This document shows positions 13,691 through 22,733 of a DNA stretch of 64,000 nt, in pieces (positions within the stretch are counted from its first letter, which is position 1; the number at the start of each line of letters is the position of its first letter). Origin of the DNA: Mycolicibacterium gilvum (lineage in GTDB: Bacteria > Actinomycetota > Actinomycetes > Mycobacteriales > Mycobacteriaceae); contig NZ_UGQM01000001.1 of NCBI RefSeq assembly GCF_900454025.1, positions 2,604,001 through 2,668,000 of the forward strand, written 5' to 3'. A program made the position numbers and the translations under genes. The notes beneath the pieces were generated by a model that saw only the letters and a program-made list of their open reading frames with translations, was not told where the DNA came from and did no database searches.

Positions 13691-14620
13691 GTGCTGCACT
13701 TACGCGTGGTCGTTCCCGAAGACATGCGCGACGACGTCCTCGACGTGCTGCGCAGTCAGGTCGGCGTCGCCCACGTGCTGCTCCATCCGGGCGCTGCCGT
13801 CGACCCCGCCGGCGACGTGATCGCGGCCGACCTCGCTCGCGAATGCGCGAACGACGTCATCAAGAACCTCAAGGACCTCGACGCCCAGCATCGCGGTGCG
13901 ATTACCCTGACCGTCCTGGACACCGTGCTGTCGACCAGAGCCCACAGGGCCGAGGAGGAGGCCGTCGGAGATCCCGCGGACGCCGTCGTGTGGGACGAAC
14001 TCATCGGCCGCACACGGGAAGAGGCGACGCTGTCGGTCACCTTCGTGCTCTTCCTGACGTTGGCGTGTCTGCTCACCGCGATCGGCGTCGTCACCGACTC
14101 GACGGTGACCGTGGTCGGCGCCATGGTGCTCGGTCCGGAGTTCGGTCCGCTCGCCGCACTGTCGGTCGCGCTCGTGCAGCGCCGCATGGCCCTGGCCCGC
14201 CGTGCCGCCGTCGCCCTGGTCGTCGGCTTCCCGATCGCGATGGCGATCACCGCGATCGCCACCTGGGCCGCCGAGTCCCTCGGCTGGATCACCCTCGACA
14301 GCGTTGCGCACGTCGAGGAGGTCGACTTCATCTTCCGGGTCGGTCCGGTGTCGTTCATGGTCGCGCTGCTCGCCGGCGCGGCGGGCATGCTGTCGCTGGT
14401 GTCGGCGAGATCGGCCGGGCTCGTCGGGGTCTTCATCTCCGTCTACACCGTGACCGCAGCGGGATTCGCGGTGGTCGCCGCGACGGTCGGCGCCTGGGAC
14501 GTCGCGGCGAAGTCGGCACTGCAGCTGGTGGTCAACCTCGTCGGCATCGTTCTGGCCGGGGTCCTGGTGCTGGTGCTGCGTCCGCGCGGTCGTCTGGTGG
14601 CGCGCACGGCCCGCAAGTAG
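13691..14620 (+). CDS. DUF389 family membrane protein
   Basis: Protein of 309 residues. A soluble N-terminal domain (about 1-110) is followed by five or six hydrophobic helices (about 115-300). DUF389 features seen are the N-terminal RVVVPEDMRDDVLDVL, the first membrane segment LSVTFVLFLTLACLLTAIGVVTDS and the highly conserved VVGAMVLGPEFGPLAALSVALVQRR (about 138-162). The role of the family is unknown. It precedes the transglutaminase cluster by 62 bp on the same strand, which may mean shared transcription, but there is no functional link to infer. GTG 13691 is supported by the TAACTT box 6 nt upstream. Confidence 0.85.
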   Translation: MLHLRVVVPEDMRDDVLDVLRSQVGVAHVLLHPGAAVDPAGDVIAADLARECANDVIKNLKDLDAQHRGAITLTVLDTVLSTRAHRAEEEAVGDPADAVVWDELIGRTREEATLSVTFVLFLTLACLLTAIGVVTDSTVTVVGAMVLGPEFGPLAALSVALVQRRMALARRAAVALVVGFPIAMAITAIATWAAESLGWITLDSVAHVEEVDFIFRVGPVSFMVALLAGAAGMLSLVSARSAGLVGVFISVYTVTAAGFAVVAATVGAWDVAAKSALQLVVNLVGIVLAGVLVLVLRPRGRLVARTARK

Positions 14621-14682
14621 CGGACGCGCACGCGAGGGACGCAACCTGCATCGCATCCGGTGTTGTGATGGGATTGGCCGCT

Positions 14683-17600
14683 ATGGGTATCAAGGTAGCT
14701 CTGGAGCATCGCACCAGCTACACATTCGACCGCCTCGTCGAGGTTCATCCTCACGTCGTGCGGCTGCGCCCGGCCCCGCACTCGCGCACACCCATCGAGG
14801 CCTACTCCTTACAGGTCGAGCCCGCCGATCACTTCGTCAACTGGCAGCAGGACGCCTTCGGTAACTTCCTCGCGCGGCTGGTGTTCCCGACCCGCGCCCG
14901 CAGCCTGACCATCACCGTCGGCCTGATCGCCGACCTGAAGGTCGTCAACCCGTTCGACTTCTTCATCGAGGACTACGCCGAACGCGTCGGCTTCGCGTAT
15001 CCGAAGGCGCTGGCCGAGGATCTCAAGCCCTATCTGCGTCCCGTCGACGAGGACGGGGAGGGCACCGGCCCCGGCGACCTCGCCGCCGCGTGGGTGTCGA
15101 ACTTCTCCGTGGCCACGGGCACCAGGACGATCGACTTCCTCGTCGCGCTGAACCGCGCCGTCAACGCCGACGTCGGCTATTCGGTGCGGATGGAGCCCGG
15201 GGTGCAGACCCCGGACGTCACGCTGCGCACCGGGATCGGCTCCTGCCGCGACTCGGCGTGGTTGCTGGTGTCCATTCTGCGTCAGCTCGGCCTGGCGGCG
15301 CGCTTCGTGTCGGGGTACCTGGTCCAGCTGACCTCGGACGTCGAGGCGCTCGACGGCCCGTCGGGCCCGGCCGCGGACTTCACGGATCTGCACGCGTGGA
15401 CCGAGGTCTACATCCCCGGAGCCGGCTGGATCGGGCTGGACCCCACCTCCGGTCTGTTCGCCGGGGAGGGCCACATCCCGCTGTCGGCCACCCCGCATCC
15501 CGAGTCCGCCGCTCCGATCACCGGTGCCACCGAACCCTGTGAGACCGTCCTGGAGTTCAGCAACGTCGTGACCCGGGTGCACGAGGACCCGCGGGTGACG
15601 CTGCCCTACACGGACGCCAGTTGGGCCGCGATCAACGCGCTCGGCCGCCGGGTGGACGAACGGCTCCGCGAGGCCGACGTGCGCCTGACCATGGGCGGGG
15701 AGCCGACGTTCGTCTCGATCGACAACCAGGTGGATCCGGAGTGGACCACCGCCGCCGACGGACCGCACAAGCGGGAGCGGGCATCGGCGCTGACCGCGCG
15801 ACTGAAGAAGGTGTGGGCGCCGCAGGGCCTGGTGCAGCGCAGCCAGGGCAAGTGGTATCCCGGAGAACCGTTGCCGCGCTGGCAGATCGGGCTCTACTGG
15901 CGCGCCGACGGGGAACCGCTCTGGAGCGATGACCGGCTGCTTGCCGATCCGTGGCCCGAGACGCCCGGCGTTCGAGGAATCGCCCCCGATGCCCACCGCG
16001 CGCTGCTGGCCGCGATCGCCGACGGCCTCGGGCTGCCGGCAGACCGGGTCCGCCCCGCCTACGAGGACCCGCTGACCCGGCTCATCGCAGCCGTGCGCCG
16101 ACCCGAGGGGCCTCCGGTCGCCGCCGACGACGACCTGGCCGCAGACGACGCCGCGGGCCGGGCCGCACTGATGCAGCGGCTCGACGAATCGGTCGGCGAA
16201 CCAACGGCGTTCGTCCTGCCTCTGCACCGCCGCGACGACGACGCCGGCTGGGCCAGCGCGGACTGGACGTTGCGGCGCGGTCGCATCGTGCTGCTCGACG
16301 GCGACTCACCGGCGGGCCTGCGGCTGCCGCTGAACTCGATCAGCTGGAAGCCCCCCAAGCCGACGTTCGAGGCCGACCCGATCCACCGTCGCCCGGCGCT
16401 GGGACGTGGCGCCGCCCTCGCGCGCTCGGCCACCGCGACACCGGAGGAGACGTCGGACGACGACGAGTGGGTTCCGACGACGGCGCTGGTCGGTGAGATC
16501 CGCGACGGCCTGCTGTATGTGTTCCTGCCGCCCGTCGACGAGCTGGAGCACTTCATCGACCTGATCGCGCGCATCGAGAGCGCCGCGGCCTCGATCGACT
16601 GCCCCGTCGTGATCGAGGGCTACGGCCCGCCGCCGGATCCGCGCCTCACCACGATGTCGATCACGCCCGACCCGGGCGTCATCGAGGTCAACGTCGCGCC
16701 CACCGAGAGTTTCGTCGAGCAGCGCGCCCAGCTGGAGACGCTCTACCGGGAAGCCCGGCTGGCCCGGCTCTCGACCGAGGCGTTCGATGTCGACGGCACC
16801 CACGGCGGCACCGGGGGCGGAAACCACATCACCCTCGGCGGCGTCACCCCGGCCGACTCGCCACTGCTGCGCCGGCCCGACCTGCTGGTGTCGATGCTCA
16901 CCTACTGGCAGCGGCACCCGGCGCTGTCCTATCTGTTCGCCGGGCGTTTCATCGGCACCACCTCCCAGTCGCCGCGGGTGGACGAGGGGCGTCCGGACGC
17001 CCTCTACGAACTCGAGATCGCCTTCGCTGAGATCGCGCGGTTGTCGAAGGCCGAGGGGGGCGCCGCTCCGGAGCATGGTCGCTCCGCAAGCTCCGCAAGC
17101 TCCGCTCCGGAACATGGTCGCTCCGCAAGCTCCGCTCCGCCCTGGCTCGTCGACCGGGCCCTTCGTCATCTGCTCACCGACATCACCGGCAACACCCACC
17201 GTGCCGAGTTCTGCATCGACAAGCTCTACAGTCCCGACAGCGCGCGGGGCCGACTCGGGCTGCTGGAGCTGCGCGGGTTCGAGATGCCGCCGCATCCCCA
17301 GATGGCGATGGTGCAGTCGCTGTTGGTGCGCTCGCTGGTCGCCTGGTTCTGGGACGAGCCGCTGCGTGCCCCGCTGATCCGCCACGGAGCCAACCTGCAC
17401 GGCCGATACCTGTTGCCGCACTTCCTGATTCACGACATCGCCGAGGTCGCGGCCGACCTGCGCGCGCACGGTGTCGAGTTCGACACCAGCTGGCTCGACC
17501 CGTTCACCGAGTTCCGCTTCCCGAGAATCGGCACCGCCGTGCTCGGCGGGGTGGAGATCGAGTTGCGCGGCGCGATCGAGCCGTGGAACGTGCTGGGTGA

Positions 17601-18093
17601 GGAATCGACGGCCGGCGGCACCGCCCGCTACGTGGATTCGTCGGTCGAACGGCTCCAGGTGCGTCTCATCGGAGCCGACCGGTCGCGCTACCTCGTCACC
17701 GTCAACGGTCATCCGGTCCCGATGCTCGCCACCGACAACCCCGATGTCCAGGTCGGCGGTGTGCGCTACCGCGCCTGGCAACCGCCGAGCGCGTTGCATC
17801 CGACGATCACGGTGGACGGTCCGCTGCGGTTCGAGCTGATCGACGCCGCGACGGGGGTGTCACGCGGGGGATGCACCTATCACGTCTCCCATCCGGGCGG
17901 ACGTTCCTACGACAGCCCGCCGGTCAACGCGGTGGAGGCCGAGTCGCGCCGGGCGCGCCGTTTCGAGGCCACCGGGTTCACCCCCGGTGCGGTCGACCTC
18001 GCGGCGCTGCGGGAGAAGCTTGCCCGCCAATCCACCGATGTGGGCGCGCCGGGGATCTTGGATCTGCGGCGAGTGCGTACCGTTCTGCAGTAA
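14683..18093 (+). CDS. Transglutaminase-like/DUF2126 protein, large (Rv2566-like)
   Basis: Protein of 1,136 residues, close to the ~1,140 I recall for M. tuberculosis Rv2566. An N-terminal transglutaminase-associated beta domain (about 1-130, VALEHRTSYTFDR) leads to the transglutaminase core with the triad Cys188 (GSCRDSAWLLV), His237 (DLHAWTEVYIPG) and Asp253 (GLDPTSG). From about 330 to the end is DUF2126, with MGGEPTFVSID near 345 and the conserved GTGGGNHITLGG and HGANLHGRYLLPHF. ATG 14683 starts the family sequence; ATG 14668 and GTG 14665 are alternatives, and the frame is open much further up without homology. A 39-bp tandem duplication adds two 13-residue repeats at 795-820. Such proteins are cytosolic and thought to act with ATP-grasp/alpha-E partners; here that partner starts 1 bp inside the stop. 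Confidence 0.93.
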   Translation: MGIKVALEHRTSYTFDRLVEVHPHVVRLRPAPHSRTPIEAYSLQVEPADHFVNWQQDAFGNFLARLVFPTRARSLTITVGLIADLKVVNPFDFFIEDYAERVGFAYPKALAEDLKPYLRPVDEDGEGTGPGDLAAAWVSNFSVATGTRTIDFLVALNRAVNADVGYSVRMEPGVQTPDVTLRTGIGSCRDSAWLLVSILRQLGLAARFVSGYLVQLTSDVEALDGPSGPAADFTDLHAWTEVYIPGAGWIGLDPTSGLFAGEGHIPLSATPHPESAAPITGATEPCETVLEFSNVVTRVHEDPRVTLPYTDASWAAINALGRRVDERLREADVRLTMGGEPTFVSIDNQVDPEWTTAADGPHKRERASALTARLKKVWAPQGLVQRSQGKWYPGEPLPRWQIGLYWRADGEPLWSDDRLLADPWPETPGVRGIAPDAHRALLAAIADGLGLPADRVRPAYEDPLTRLIAAVRRPEGPPVAADDDLAADDAAGRAALMQRLDESVGEPTAFVLPLHRRDDDAGWASADWTLRRGRIVLLDGDSPAGLRLPLNSISWKPPKPTFEADPIHRRPALGRGAALARSATATPEETSDDDEWVPTTALVGEIRDGLLYVFLPPVDELEHFIDLIARIESAAASIDCPVVIEGYGPPPDPRLTTMSITPDPGVIEVNVAPTESFVEQRAQLETLYREARLARLSTEAFDVDGTHGGTGGGNHITLGGVTPADSPLLRRPDLLVSMLTYWQRHPALSYLFAGRFIGTTSQSPRVDEGRPDALYELEIAFAEIARLSKAEGGAAPEHGRSASSASSAPEHGRSASSAPPWLVDRALRHLLTDITGNTHRAEFCIDKLYSPDSARGRLGLLELRGFEMPPHPQMAMVQSLLVRSLVAWFWDEPLRAPLIRHGANLHGRYLLPHFLIHDIAEVAADLRAHGVEFDTSWLDPFTEFRFPRIGTAVLGGVEIELRGAIEPWNVLGEESTAGGTARYVDSSVERLQVRLIGADRSRYLVTVNGHPVPMLATDNPDVQVGGVRYRAWQPPSALHPTITVDGPLRFELIDAATGVSRGGCTYHVSHPGGRSYDSPPVNAVEAESRRARRFEATGFTPGAVDLAALREKLARQSTDVGAPGILDLRRVRTVLQ
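17065..17133 (+). repeat. Tandem 39-bp repeat inside the DUF2126 gene
   Basis: A 30-bp unit (GCTCCGGAGCATGGTCGCTC plus 10 more bases) at 17065-17094 recurs at 17104-17133 with one change. The period is 39 bp (13 codons), and a 9-bp part (GCAAGCTCC) is itself duplicated at 17095-17103. The units hold GGAGC/GCTCC inverted arms. The frame is kept, giving the repeated peptide APEHGRSASS. Confidence 0.9.
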
Positions 18094-20726
18094 TGGCCGT
18101 CCCCGCAACACCTCCGACACCCCGACTGGGTGCCGGACGGACCGACGTCGACAATCCGCTGGAGCCCTACGGCTCCATGCGGGCGCAGCCGTCGCTGTTC
18201 GACGTGGCGTCGGCGTTCGGTGGCCTGGCCGGCTACGACGAGTTCGTCGACACGGCAGGCGATGTGAGGCCCGCCTGGCAGGAACTGGCCGACTGCGTCC
18301 GTGACCGCGGCCGCGGCGGACTCGACCGGCTGCGGGCCGTGGTCCGTGATCTGGTCGACAACGACGGCATCACCTACGTCCAGACCGACCGCGAGGGAGA
18401 GCCCGTCGCCGGGCCGTGGCGACTCGATGCGCTGCCACTGGTCATCTCGGCGTCGGACTGGGATCACCTCGAGGCCGGTCTGGTCCAACGCTCGCGGTTG
18501 CTCGACGCCGTGCTCACTGACGTCTACGGCGAACGCCGGGTCGTCACCGGCGGTGTGCTGCCACCGGAGCTGCTGTTCTCCCATCCCGGCTACCTGCGGG
18601 CGGCCAACGGCATCGAGATCCCCGGCCGCCATCAGCTCTTCCTGCACGGCTGTGACATCAGCCGCAACGGCACGGGTGACTTCGTCGTCAACGCCGACTA
18701 CACGCAGGCGCCGTCGGGGGCGGGTTACGCGCTCGCCGACCGGAGGGTCGTCGCGCACGCGATCCCCGACCTCTACGAGCAGATCGGGCCGCGTCAGAGC
18801 TCGCCCTGGGCCCAGGCGCTGCGGCTGGCGCTCGTCGATGCCGCGCCCGACGCGGTCGACGAGCCGATGGTCGTCGTGCTCAGCCCCGGCATCCACTCCG
18901 AGACCGCGTTCGACCAGGCCTATCTGGCCAGCGTGCTGGGTCTTCCGCTGGTGGAGAGCGCCGACCTGGTGGTGCGCGACGGCATGTTGTGGATGCGGTC
19001 CATGGGCACCCTGAAACGGGTCGACGTGGTGCTGCGCAGGGTGGACGCCGACTACGCCGATCCGCTCGACCTGCGGCCGGCCTCCCGGCTGGGTGTGGTG
19101 GGCCTGGTGGAGGTGCTGCGCCGTGGAGCGGTCACGGTGGTCAACTCGCTGGGCAGCGGCGTGCTGGAAAGCCCTGGGCTGCTTCGCTTTCTGCCCGAGA
19201 TGGCCGAACATCTCCTCGGTGAGACACCGCTGCTGCCGACCCCGCACCTGTACTGGGGTGGTATCGATATCGAGCGCTCCCACCTGGTGAGCAACCTGGG
19301 GTCACTGGTGATCAGGCCGGTGACCGGGGGTGAGCCGATCGTCGGCGCCACGCTGTCGGCGGCTCGCCGCGAGGAACTGGCGGCCAGGATCACCGCCACC
19401 CCGTGGCAGTGGGTCGGTCAGGAACCTCCCGAGTTCTCCTCGGCCCCATCGGATTTCCTGCCCGGCGGGCTGTCCTCGTCCAGTGTCGGGATGCGGTTGT
19501 TCACCGTGTCCCAGCGCAGCGGTTACGCGCCGATGATCGGTGGACTCGGTTATCTCCTGGCTCCTGGGGCGGATGCGTACCGACTCAAAAGTGTTGCTGC
19601 CAAGGATGTCTGGGTCCGCACCGCGACCAGGGTGACCGCCGAGGCGGTTCCGCTGCCGGCGCTGGCCACCTCGAGTCCGACCCAGGAGGTCAGCTCACCG
19701 CGTGTGCTGTCGGACCTCTTCTGGATCGGCCGCTACGCCGAGCGCGCCGAGCACACGGCCCGGCTCCTCACCGTCACCCGGGAGCGCTACCACGAGTACC
19801 GGTACCGGCGCACGATGGACGGCAGTGAGTGCGTCCCGGTCCTGCTCACCGCACTCGGCGAGATCACCGGCACCGACACCGGAGCCGCCGGCGACTACGC
19901 CGAGATGGTCGCGACCGCGCCGACGACCCTGTGGTCGCTGACGGCCGACCGTCACCGCCCCGGCTCCCTGGCCCAGTCGGTCGAGCGGCTCGGCCTGGCC
20001 GCCCGTGCCGTGCGTGACCAGATGTCCAACGACACCTGGATGGTGCTGTCCGCGCTGGACCGGGCGCTGCTCAACGCGCCTGACACACCGCCGGATTCAC
20101 AGGCCGAGGGGGACGCGTTCCTCGCCTCGACCAACACCCTGGCCCTGGCCGGGATGATGGCGCTGTCGGGTGTGGCGGCCGAATCCATGGTCCACGACGT
20201 CGGCTGGACCATGATGGACATCGGCAAGCGGATCGAACGCGGACTGGCGCTCACCGCCCTGCTGCGAGCCACGCTGACCACGGTGCGCACCCCCGGCGCC
20301 GAGCAGACGGTCACCGAGTCGGCCCTCGTCGCCTGCGAGTCCCTGGTGATCTACCGCCGACGAAATCCCGGCAAGATCAGCGTCGCGGGCGTCGCCGATC
20401 TGATGCTCTTCGATGCCGACAACCCGCGCTCGCTGGCCTATCAACTCGAGCGGCTGAGAACCCATCTGCGATCCCTTCCGGAGTCGACGGGATCCTCGCG
20501 CCCCGAGCGGATGGTCGACGAGATCGCCGCCCGGCTGCGCCGGATGGAGCCGGGTGAACTGGAGGAGGTTGCCGCCGACGGCACCCGGGACGGACTGAGG
20601 GCTCTGCTCACCGCGATCCACCGCGACCTGCGCGAGCTCTCCGCTGTCATCACCACGGTCCACCTGTCGCTGCCCGGGGACATGCAGCCGCTGTGGGGGC
20701 CCGACGAACGGCGGGTGGTGCCGTGA
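18093..20726 (+). CDS. Circularly permuted ATP-grasp + alpha-E (DUF403) fusion protein (Rv2567-like)
   Basis: Protein of 877 residues with two domains. About 1-510 is a circularly permuted ATP-grasp ligase domain, with NPLEPYGSM near the start, then ISRNGTGDFVVNADYTQAPSGAGYAL, VVLSPGIHSETAFDQAYLA and NSLGSGVLESPGLLRFLPEM. About 535-870 is the helical alpha-E/DUF403 domain, opening with SDLFWIGRYAERAEHTARLL. Proteins of this fusion are predicted amide or peptide ligases whose substrate is unknown. The ATG overlaps the upstream stop by one base (TAATG), and the next gene starts inside this stop (GTGA), so the three genes are almost certainly translated as a unit. The size agrees with the ~884 residues I recall for Rv2567. 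Confidence 0.9.
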   Translation: MAVPATPPTPRLGAGRTDVDNPLEPYGSMRAQPSLFDVASAFGGLAGYDEFVDTAGDVRPAWQELADCVRDRGRGGLDRLRAVVRDLVDNDGITYVQTDREGEPVAGPWRLDALPLVISASDWDHLEAGLVQRSRLLDAVLTDVYGERRVVTGGVLPPELLFSHPGYLRAANGIEIPGRHQLFLHGCDISRNGTGDFVVNADYTQAPSGAGYALADRRVVAHAIPDLYEQIGPRQSSPWAQALRLALVDAAPDAVDEPMVVVLSPGIHSETAFDQAYLASVLGLPLVESADLVVRDGMLWMRSMGTLKRVDVVLRRVDADYADPLDLRPASRLGVVGLVEVLRRGAVTVVNSLGSGVLESPGLLRFLPEMAEHLLGETPLLPTPHLYWGGIDIERSHLVSNLGSLVIRPVTGGEPIVGATLSAARREELAARITATPWQWVGQEPPEFSSAPSDFLPGGLSSSSVGMRLFTVSQRSGYAPMIGGLGYLLAPGADAYRLKSVAAKDVWVRTATRVTAEAVPLPALATSSPTQEVSSPRVLSDLFWIGRYAERAEHTARLLTVTRERYHEYRYRRTMDGSECVPVLLTALGEITGTDTGAAGDYAEMVATAPTTLWSLTADRHRPGSLAQSVERLGLAARAVRDQMSNDTWMVLSALDRALLNAPDTPPDSQAEGDAFLASTNTLALAGMMALSGVAAESMVHDVGWTMMDIGKRIERGLALTALLRATLTTVRTPGAEQTVTESALVACESLVIYRRRNPGKISVAGVADLMLFDADNPRSLAYQLERLRTHLRSLPESTGSSRPERMVDEIAARLRRMEPGELEEVAADGTRDGLRALLTAIHRDLRELSAVITTVHLSLPGDMQPLWGPDERRVVP

Positions 20727-21655
20727 CCGCCTTCCCCGACGGTCCCGTCGCAACCGGCGGCAGCCGCTGCTACGAGGTGACGCACCGCACCGAGTACCGG
20801 TACTCCGACGTCGTCACGAGCTCGTACGGCCGCGGCTTCCTCACGCCGCGCGACTCGGCGCGTCAGCGATGCCTGTTCCACGAACTCGCCATCGAGCCCG
20901 ACGCCGCCGACAGCTCCACCAGCCGCGACGTCTACGGCAACATCAGCTCCTATTTCCACGTCACCGCACGGCACCGGCGGCTGGTCATCACGAGCCGGTC
21001 GGTCGTCGAGGTCGACCCGCCGCCGCCGGATCTGTACCAGGGGCCCTCGGCGCGCGCACCGTGGGAGATCGCGCGGCCGGTGGGCGCCGACGGCGCGCTG
21101 GCCAAGGAGTTCACGCTCGATCTGCAGCCACCCGAGATCACCGAGGAGCTGCGGGCCTACGCCGCACCGAGTTTCGTCGCCGGCCGGCCTCTGATCGAGG
21201 TGCTGCGCGACCTGAACGAGAGGATCTACACCGACTTCACCTACCGGTCCGGCTCGACGACGGTATCGACACAGGTCGCAGAGGTTTTGGCGGCGCGCGA
21301 GGGGGTATGTCAGGACTTCGCGCGGCTGGCGATCGCCTGCCTGCGTGCCAACGGTCTGGCCGCCAGCTACGTGTCTGGATACCTGGCGACGGACCCTCCG
21401 CCCGGGAAGGAACGCATGGTGGGAGTTGACGCGACGCACGCATGGGCGTCGGTGTGGACACCGCAGAATCTGTGGCTGGGCCTCGATCCGACCAACAACC
21501 AGATGGTCGACGAACGTTACGTGACGGTGGGTTTCGGGCGCGACTACGCCGACGTGCCGCCCCTGCGCGGCATCATCTACACGGATTCGGAGAGCAGCGT
21601 CATCGATGTGTCGGTCGACGTCGCGCCATACCTTGGGGGAGTACTGAATGCGTGA
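20723..21655 (+). CDS. Transglutaminase-like protein, short (Rv2569c-like)
   Basis: Protein of 310 residues. An N-terminal transglutaminase-associated beta domain (about 10-110, YEVTHRTEYRYSD) is followed by the papain-like core with Cys196 (GVCQDFARLAIACLRANGL), His239 (DATHAWASVW) and Asp255 (GLDPTN). The triad is complete, so catalysis (amide hydrolysis or transfer) is expected. It is the short, DUF2126-free relative of the first gene of the cluster. The GTG start overlaps the ATP-grasp stop by 4 bp, which decides it over the ATG 30 bp upstream. No signal peptide is seen, so it should act in the cytosol. Confidence 0.9.
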   Translation: MTAFPDGPVATGGSRCYEVTHRTEYRYSDVVTSSYGRGFLTPRDSARQRCLFHELAIEPDAADSSTSRDVYGNISSYFHVTARHRRLVITSRSVVEVDPPPPDLYQGPSARAPWEIARPVGADGALAKEFTLDLQPPEITEELRAYAAPSFVAGRPLIEVLRDLNERIYTDFTYRSGSTTVSTQVAEVLAAREGVCQDFARLAIACLRANGLAASYVSGYLATDPPPGKERMVGVDATHAWASVWTPQNLWLGLDPTNNQMVDERYVTVGFGRDYADVPPLRGIIYTDSESSVIDVSVDVAPYLGGVLNA

Positions 21656-22733
21656 CTTCACGTGCCCGAACTGCGGCCAGCGGCTGTCGTTCGAGAACTC
21701 GGTGTGTCTGAACTGCAAGAGTGCGCTGGGGTTCTCACTCGACGACATGGCGCTGCTGGTCATCGCGCCGACAGAGGAGAGCGAACACGCCGGTGCGGTC
21801 GACGAGCGGGAGTACCAGCTGTGCGCGAATCTGCATCTCGCCGAATGCAATTGGCTCGTCGAGAAGGGGCCGATCGCCAAGCTGTGCGTGTCGTGCGCAC
21901 TGACCCGGACCCGTCCGAACGACGCCGACGTGGTCGCTCTGGCCGCGTTCGCGACCGCGGAGAGCGCCAAGCGCCGCCTGATCGCCGAACTGTGCGAGCT
22001 CAAGCTCCCGATCGTCGGCCGCGATCTCGACCCGCAATTCGGTCTGGCGTTCGATCTGCTCTCGAGTCAGTTCGAGAAGGTGTTCACCGGCCATGAAAAC
22101 GGTGTCATCACACTGGATCTCGCCGAGGGCGACGACGTGCACCGCGAACAGCTGCGGATCTCGATGGACGAGCCCTACCGCACCCTGCTCGGGCATTTCC
22201 GTCACGAGATCGGCCACTACTACCAGTACCGGCTGATCGGAACGTCGCAGGACTATCTGGACCGTTACCACGAGTTGTTCGGTGACCCGGAGGCCGACTA
22301 CCAGGCTGCGCTCGACCGCCACTACAGCGAGGGTGCGCCCGCCGGCTGGGAGCAGGACTACGTGTCGTCCTATGCGACCATGCACCCCGCCGAGGACTGG
22401 GCCGAGACGTTCGCGCACTACCTGCACATCCGTGACACCTTGGACACCGCCGCGGCATTCGGGTTCGCCCCGGCCACCGCGACCTACGACCGACGCGTCC
22501 TCGGCCCCAGCGGTTTCGACACCCTCATCGATCTGTGGCTGCCGCTGTCGTGGGCGCTGAATCAGGTCAACCGGTCGATGGGCAAGGAGGACGTGTACCC
22601 GTTCGTCCTTCCGCCCCCGGTGCTGGAGAAGATGCGGTTCATCCACACGGTGATCGACGAGATCACCTCGAGCCCGGCGAAACTGGCCGAGGTCGGTGCG
22701 CCCGCGGAGGACCAGAGCCAGCAGTTGGACTGA
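21648..22733 (+). CDS. Putative zinc-binding metallopeptidase with N-terminal zinc ribbon (Rv2568c-like)
   Basis: Protein of 361 residues. A zinc ribbon is formed by Cys6, Cys9, Cys20 and Cys23 (CPNC...CLNC). The gluzincin-type motif HEIGH is at 186-190, followed by YYQYRL, and a second acidic/His stretch HPAEDWAETFAHYLH lies at about 246-260 and could give the third metal ligand. The family is annotated as putative zinc metallopeptidase. The gene overlaps the transglutaminase by 8 bp and closes the cluster, so it may remove or trim the product of the ligase/transglutaminase enzymes. That link is inferred from context only. Confidence 0.87.
   Translation: MRDFTCPNCGQRLSFENSVCLNCKSALGFSLDDMALLVIAPTEESEHAGAVDEREYQLCANLHLAECNWLVEKGPIAKLCVSCALTRTRPNDADVVALAAFATAESAKRRLIAELCELKLPIVGRDLDPQFGLAFDLLSSQFEKVFTGHENGVITLDLAEGDDVHREQLRISMDEPYRTLLGHFRHEIGHYYQYRLIGTSQDYLDRYHELFGDPEADYQAALDRHYSEGAPAGWEQDYVSSYATMHPAEDWAETFAHYLHIRDTLDTAAAFGFAPATATYDRRVLGPSGFDTLIDLWLPLSWALNQVNRSMGKEDVYPFVLPPPVLEKMRFIHTVIDEITSSPAKLAEVGAPAEDQSQQLD

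Follow-up and report, generated by a model that had tools for sequence, protein, structure and literature searches.

A 64,000-nucleotide stretch of Mycolicibacterium gilvum (contig NZ_UGQM01000001.1, positions 2,604,001 to 2,668,000; hereafter the window), set within a genome of 6.43 Mb, carries an overlapping four-gene module (genes A to D) that is real, conserved and of a kind predicted in 2008–2009, of which it constitutes a zinc-peptidase variant. The ligase, alpha-E and transglutaminase part has been known as a predicted peptide-synthesis system since that time; the part for which no earlier description was found is the partnership with a zinc peptidase. The features concerned are as follows:

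14683..18093, + strand: gene A, transglutaminase-like domain plus DUF2126 (1136 aa; Pfam)
15115..15444, + strand: Transglut_core in gene A, residues 145–254
15532..18069, + strand: DUF2126 in gene A, residues 284–1129
18093..20726, + strand: gene B, circularly permuted ATP-grasp (degenerate) fused to alpha-E (877 aa)
18435..19550, + strand: degenerate ATP-grasp domain in gene B, residues 115–486 (motif alignment; solved homologue 3n6x)
19698..20660, + strand: Alpha-E domain in gene B, residues 536–856 (Pfam)
20723..21655, + strand: gene C, second transglutaminase-like protein (C196-H239-D255; 310 aa, GTG start)
21648..22733, + strand: gene D, zinc ribbon plus zinc metallopeptidase (H186-E187-H190, Y242, E249; 361 aa)

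A prior sequence-only reading of the window had proposed this overlapping set, and was borne out both in its coordinates (14683–22733, all four genes on the + strand, with overlaps of 1, 4 and 8 bp at A/B, B/C and C/D respectively) and in its domain names, each of which was recovered by Pfam. An alternative in-frame ATG start for gene A lies at 14668, and an NCBIfam scan of the module proteins gave no match over cut-off. The module is presumably equivalent to Rv2566–Rv2569c of M. tuberculosis.

Pfam analysis of gene D recognised Zn_ribbon_DZR_6 and Peptidase_Mx (339 bits), and alignment confirmed that the zinc-peptidase site is intact: H186, E187, H190, Y242 and E249 were identical in 59 of 59 sequences, the HExxH motif and a conserved candidate third ligand being thereby accounted for, while ribbon cysteines 59, 67 and 80 were also kept throughout (59/59), and cysteines 6, 9, 20 and 23 were kept in 46 to 54 of the 59 and otherwise mostly represented by gaps. 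The modelled catalytic fold is one that gene D appears to have in common with the gluzincins (the M34 lethal-factor domain, Pro-Pro endopeptidases, 4l7a and M1 aminopeptidases), from which it nevertheless differs in its low identity (9–17%), in that no secretion or toxin parts were seen, and in possessing its own N-terminal zinc ribbon. The closest peptidase relatives among the best 80 of 542 loci belonged to Mycolicibacterium, Mycolicibacter or Mycobacterium, with identities of up to 91%. As a separate observation, the peptidase of Serratia inhibens (L064:10001-11029) was 64% identical to the mycobacterial enzyme, as against 45–47% in the Pseudomonas and Nevskia rows, a likeness in sequence that suggests horizontal transfer of the peptidase gene.

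The evidence for the partnership comes from co-occurrence and from linkage. Genome samples drawn from the host phylum (158 genomes), Pseudomonadota (199) and Bacteroidota (198) contained alpha-E over cut-off in 29, 119 and 76 cases respectively, a spread not explained by large genomes because the domain is common in Bacteroidota genomes of 2–3 Mb. Within the host phylum, Peptidase_Mx was recorded in 8 genomes (5 of them belonging to one genus), DUF2126 in exactly those 8, and alpha-E in all 8. The corresponding figures for Pseudomonadota were 37 genomes with the peptidase, 119 with alpha-E and 36 with both (Fisher 1e-8, a value that ignores relatedness and genome size), DUF2126 being present in 62 genomes, every one of them with alpha-E and 26 of them with the peptidase; all 3 full-length peptidases from Bacteroidota resided in alpha-E genomes. 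Counting only full-length copies, the peptidase was accompanied by alpha-E in 8/8, 34/35 and 3/3 genomes, that is 45/46 across three phyla, or 42/43 without G000, G173 and G176, which were chosen as centres for carrying the peptidase. Left out of these counts were, in the host phylum, short sub-cut-off matches in G117, G144 and G003, where no alpha-E was found; in Pseudomonadota, G335 and G346, which gave only broken or short matches and both contained alpha-E, plus seven rows of short or broken matches; and in Bacteroidota, G412 (short, 28.7 bits, over cut-off), G461 and G545 (both below), all lacking alpha-E, together with G453, where a match below cut-off was accompanied by alpha-E. G262 alone among the genomes sampled combined a full-length peptidase with the absence of alpha-E; its copy (L148:7475-8440) falls within a lower-scoring group (about 265–276 bits).

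The converse relationship fails. Independent occurrence of the genes had been set beforehand as refuting a common unit, and in this respect the outcome was divided: alpha-E is often found without the peptidase (83 of the 119 alpha-E-positive Pseudomonadota genomes), whereas a full-length peptidase without alpha-E was encountered in 1 genome of 46. In the reading favoured below, the peptidase would be an optional, trimming partner of the peptide- or amide-making system.

A survey of gene neighbourhoods, conducted on the best 80 of 542 loci and hence biased to close relatives, located ATP-grasp/alpha-E genes inside the fetched flanks of the peptidase at 49 loci but not at 30; at one further locus (L034), situated at a contig end, only a gene-C relative was seen next to the peptidase. 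Given 49 linked loci out of 80, the gene order is beyond chance. The 32 mycobacterial loci, which include two actinobacterial metagenome-assembled genomes assigned by likeness (L026 and L045), comprised 22 with all genes on one strand, 9 in which C-D faces B-A, and L034; four of the 9 are from the named species colombiense, szulgai, scrofulaceum and asiaticum, which are slow growers. When 19 of the 30 genomes with unlinked loci were sampled, alpha-E was present in all 19 and DUF2126 in 13. At least 10 of the 39 full-length Pseudomonadota copies lay no more than 10 kb from DUF2126 or alpha-E, with gene order and strand varying between loci, and L143 presented the same four genes with D inverted. 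Peptidase_Mx, Anbu, ATP-grasp and alpha-E occurred together at L138:7409-11774 and L139:6699-11120, with no transglutaminase detected in the fetched stretch; in L139 a contiguous operon of D, alpha-E and ATP-grasp adjoins Anbu, and the Anbu neighbours at both loci matched a designed Anbu at ~1e-80 and natural solved Anbu proteins at 2e-56 to 6e-73. Given these arrangements, the peptidase is assigned to the alpha-E system at large, including cases that lack DUF2126. Co-occurrence and linkage thus support the earlier proposal that the four overlapping genes form one unit of which the peptidase is a true partner rather than a chance feature of this genome. A good model locus was noted in Pseudomonadota (L140:5192-15894), where stand-alone and fused ligase sets plus the peptidase are contained in about 11 kb.

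Turning to gene B, Pfam recognised CP_ATPgrasp_1/2 (401 and 416 bits) and Alpha-E (235 bits), and most of the ATP-grasp part could be aligned to the solved protein 3n6x. ATP-grasp enzymology assigns roles to an ExN metal motif, a conserved lysine and a glycine-rich loop, and gene B possesses none of the three in the form expected of a catalytic ligase: Ala201 and Tyr203 replace the Glu and Asn of ExN (A-D-Y as against E-D-N in stand-alone enzymes), Arg408 stands where the lysine is expected, and the loop is shortened by the loss of residues. Throughout 56 fused ATP-grasps (30 from mycobacteria, counting that of the window, plus 18 from other actinobacteria and 8 from Pseudomonadota) ExN was complete in 0, E being kept in 1 (L145) and N in 0; lysine was present in 18, and the glycine-loop columns were gapped in 47. 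By way of contrast, all three elements were kept in 9 of 9 stand-alone ATP-grasps. Because 8 Pseudomonadota sequences are among the 56, the motif loss is regarded as a property of the fused class, and at loose Pfam thresholds the host's stand-alone ATP-grasp gives sub-cut-off matches to further ATP-grasp families whereas gene B does not. The contention that all catalytic motifs of the module are intact consequently holds for the two transglutaminase triads and for the active site of the zinc peptidase, but fails for the ATP-grasp of gene B. Since the class is devoid of ExN and mostly of the glycine loop, gene B is probably a pseudo-enzyme, serving as a non-catalytic scaffold that bears alpha-E. 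The Pfam notes on PF14403 and PF04168 reportedly distinguish active from inactive ATP-grasps, with alpha-E fused to the inactive ones; if so, the degenerate ATP-grasp was predicted earlier too.

If gene B is not the ligase, a candidate is at hand in gene A, which comprises Bact_transglu_N, Transglut_core and DUF2126 (1156 bits). A predicted model of DUF2126 aligned to glutamine synthetases and YbdK, as expected of a glutamine synthetase fold, and on this modelled basis DUF2126 is the likely ligase of the unit, of the carboxylate-amine type; 20 aligned sequences contained invariant acidic and basic residues. The N-terminal region of gene A and the whole of gene C (Bact_transglu_N plus Transglut_core) each contain the Cys-His-Asp triad of the transglutaminase-like superfamily, exactly at the positions read earlier from the sequence (Cys188-His237-Asp253 and Cys196-His239-Asp255, respectively). 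Counting the window's own sequences, the triad was kept in 51/51 of the gene-C type and 46/47 of the gene-A type, the remaining one being a gap, and in 11/11 of the stand-alone type (reference sequence counted).

The host genome contains a second set at 3.99 Mb, in which ATP-grasp, alpha-E and transglutaminase genes stand in a row and the ATP-grasp retains all motifs intact. No peptidase was found in the 3.9 kb looked at around this set, nor did a profile search of the host genome yield a further Peptidase_Mx match. Anbu is not part of the window's unit: the window spans 2.60–2.67 Mb of the host genome, whereas its three PF00227 matches lie elsewhere, at 3.49 and 3.90 Mb. Two of them form an adjacent pair at 3.49 Mb; the third, at 3.90 Mb (L157:5667-6473; about 32 bits), is a proteasome-like N-terminal nucleophile (NTN) hydrolase, and no ligase gene was recognised in its surroundings (12 kb).

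Around the module itself, a predicted membrane protein gene (13691–14620), putatively DUF389, lies directly upstream of gene A and has a relative in only 7 of the 80 related loci. None of the 48 loci classed as non-mycobacterial gave a tblastn match (E 1e-20) to the flanking genes, which are putatively DeoR-like, kinase, DUF389, DUF3097, RarA and YjbQ genes. A promoter and terminator scan was uninformative (0 promoter-like sites; 5 terminator-like, with 2.3 expected).

A transglutaminase–carboxylate-amine ligase fusion forms part of the ATP-grasp/alpha-E/transglutaminase system. In the portions of the literature covered (a scope that applies to all papers cited here), the gene-A family, exemplified by Rv2566 and of the same two-domain build, was described in 2008 as the fusion of a transglutaminase with a carboxylate-amine ligase, in an account that mentions neither a zinc peptidase nor gene B (PMC2588565), and Iyer et al. 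2009 are cited as having proposed that ATP-grasp/alpha-E/transglutaminase sets plus Anbu make or modify peptides (PMC6376114, PMC5666114). The ligase part can therefore not be called undescribed, as the sequence-only reading had it. No description of Peptidase_Mx with this ligase system was found in the open-licence PubMed Central literature, a scope outside which Iyer et al. 2009 falls. M. tuberculosis homologues appeared there only in screens and lists, and one table row, citing a thesis, enters a cloned set of ATP-grasp, alpha-E, transglutaminase and protease genes as antinematode (PMC7764037).

The module has in common with such predicted peptide-synthesis systems the joint presence of permuted ATP-grasp, alpha-E and transglutaminase-like proteins, plus the transglutaminase–ligase fusion. 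Like the Anbu operon, it unites these genes with a peptidase; unlike that operon, its ATP-grasp and alpha-E are fused and the ATP-grasp is degenerate, a second transglutaminase is fused to DUF2126, and the zinc peptidase replaces Anbu. The Yersinia Anbu-operon ATP-grasp released phosphate from ATP, whereas Anbu cleaved no test peptide (PMC6376114). Compared with Pup ligase, GCS2 and YbdK, the module possesses a fused transglutaminase, and a Pup-like small gene was not found. RimK/RimB and Pseudomonas RloA/B/C also pair an ATP-grasp with a peptidase, Rlo including a transglutaminase-like protein, but their peptidases are aspartic rather than zinc enzymes, the Rlo peptidases have signal peptides, and the Rlo transglutaminase is called inactive (PMC12239564).

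The reading that we favour, with a probability of roughly 0.45, is that the module constitutes a cytosolic amide- or peptide-bond-making system equipped with trimming enzymes of its own. Within gene A, the DUF2126 half would use ATP to activate a carboxylate for joining to an amine, as do glutamine synthetase and the gamma-glutamyl ligases, and the degenerate ATP-grasp/alpha-E protein of gene B would hold the substrate or a partner with no catalysis of its own. The transglutaminase-like enzymes (the N-terminus of A, and C) would act on the same compound, cleaving its glutamyl or peptide bonds or carrying out transfer at them, and gene D, as a zinc peptidase, would trim the product, or recycle a wrong or used one. 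The 3.99 Mb set may contribute a motif-complete ATP-grasp together with alpha-E and a transglutaminase; we infer this joint action of the two sets, as we do the cytosolic location, the chemistry and the division of labour, whereas the gene structure, the retention or loss of active-site motifs, the predicted folds of A and D and the genomic coupling come from the analysis itself. What the system makes is probably a small peptide or an amide rather than a tag on proteins.

The principal alternatives concern that product. A protein tagging cycle, in which A would ligate a peptide or amino acid onto proteins and D, with A or C, would remove it, appears unlikely, despite the presence of two bond-forming or -transferring enzyme types beside a dedicated peptidase, and of a zinc ribbon in gene D that could bind a partner; tagging was also proposed earlier for the Anbu operon (PMC6376114), and RimK/RimB provides a precedent for a ligase acting with a de-modifying peptidase (PMC12239564). 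A search for the tag grouped 1,478 small open reading frames (25–120 aa) near the 49 linked loci into 104 clusters, none of which was common to mycobacterial and other linked loci (25 held non-mycobacterial loci, none also mycobacterial, the 15 largest of these being confined to Nocardia), although a tag could be encoded elsewhere; the small conserved tag gene beside a ligase that typifies Pup-like tagging was accordingly not seen. Moreover, the 2008 analysis favoured peptide metabolites over protein conjugation for the gene-A family (PMC2588565), an Anbu pull-down gave no specific operon partner and no test substrate was cleaved (PMC6376114), and most alpha-E genomes of the Pseudomonadota are without the peptidase. 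Taken together, the literature covered and the lack of a common small reading frame favour a peptide or amide product over protein tagging, albeit weakly; the make-and-remove cycle put forward in the sequence-only reading may yet apply, although no sign of a tag was seen. To much the same degree as tagging, it is doubtful that the module serves nitrogen scavenging, its hydrolases degrading amides or peptides when nitrogen limits while the ligase part either acts in regulation or produces an amide for storage. In Burkholderia cenocepacia under nitrogen limitation, ATP-grasp, alpha-E and two transglutaminase genes were NtrC-dependent (ntrC mutant table values of −6.0 to −9.4; PMC5491218), Pseudomonas putida shows a rise in Anbu when nitrogen is limiting (as cited in PMC5666114, PMC6376114), and in marine metagenomes these domains correlate with those of urea metabolism (PMC3597751). 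However, regulation does not reveal chemistry, the nitrogen evidence concerns bacteria other than mycobacteria, and the word 'transglutaminase' was not found in the nitrogen literature covered. Somewhat less likely than either is the broader proposition of a widespread bacterial conjugation system, run by ATP-grasp/alpha-E (plus DUF2126) ligases, in which deconjugation or product release would be the dedicated task of Peptidase_Mx, the pseudo-ATP-grasp would clamp the substrate, and Peptidase_Mx and Anbu would serve one pathway as interchangeable or successive peptidases.

Two further alternatives question the part played by a single gene. That the peptidase is a bystander, kept in the unit for convenience of expression and acting on unrelated proteins, could be argued from the 30 unlinked loci, from G262, and from Rhodococcus, Gordonia and Pseudomonas loci with no ligase gene in the fetched flanks, but is improbable in view of alpha-E being present in every unlinked genome sampled and in all but one of the genomes that carry a full-length peptidase across the three phyla, of the proximity to DUF2126 or alpha-E in differing orders in Pseudomonadota, and of the contiguous operon in L139. 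That the gene B ATP-grasp is active through other residues, and is itself the ligase, is highly improbable: its fold and many structural residues are kept (Asp188 in 56/56 and Arg468 in 55/56 fused sequences) and L145 retains the E of ExN, but N is lost in 56/56 and E in 55/56, and the loop and lysine are mostly gone as described above.

With regard to significance, alpha-E is present in large fractions of the sampled genomes, yet its system's product was not found in the literature covered. The tie to the peptidase and the likely dead ATP-grasp copies provide two handles for finding it, namely trapping what the peptidase cleaves, and seeking ATP-dependent ligation by DUF2126 rather than by the fused ATP-grasp. 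It is the peptidase partnership that is worth following.

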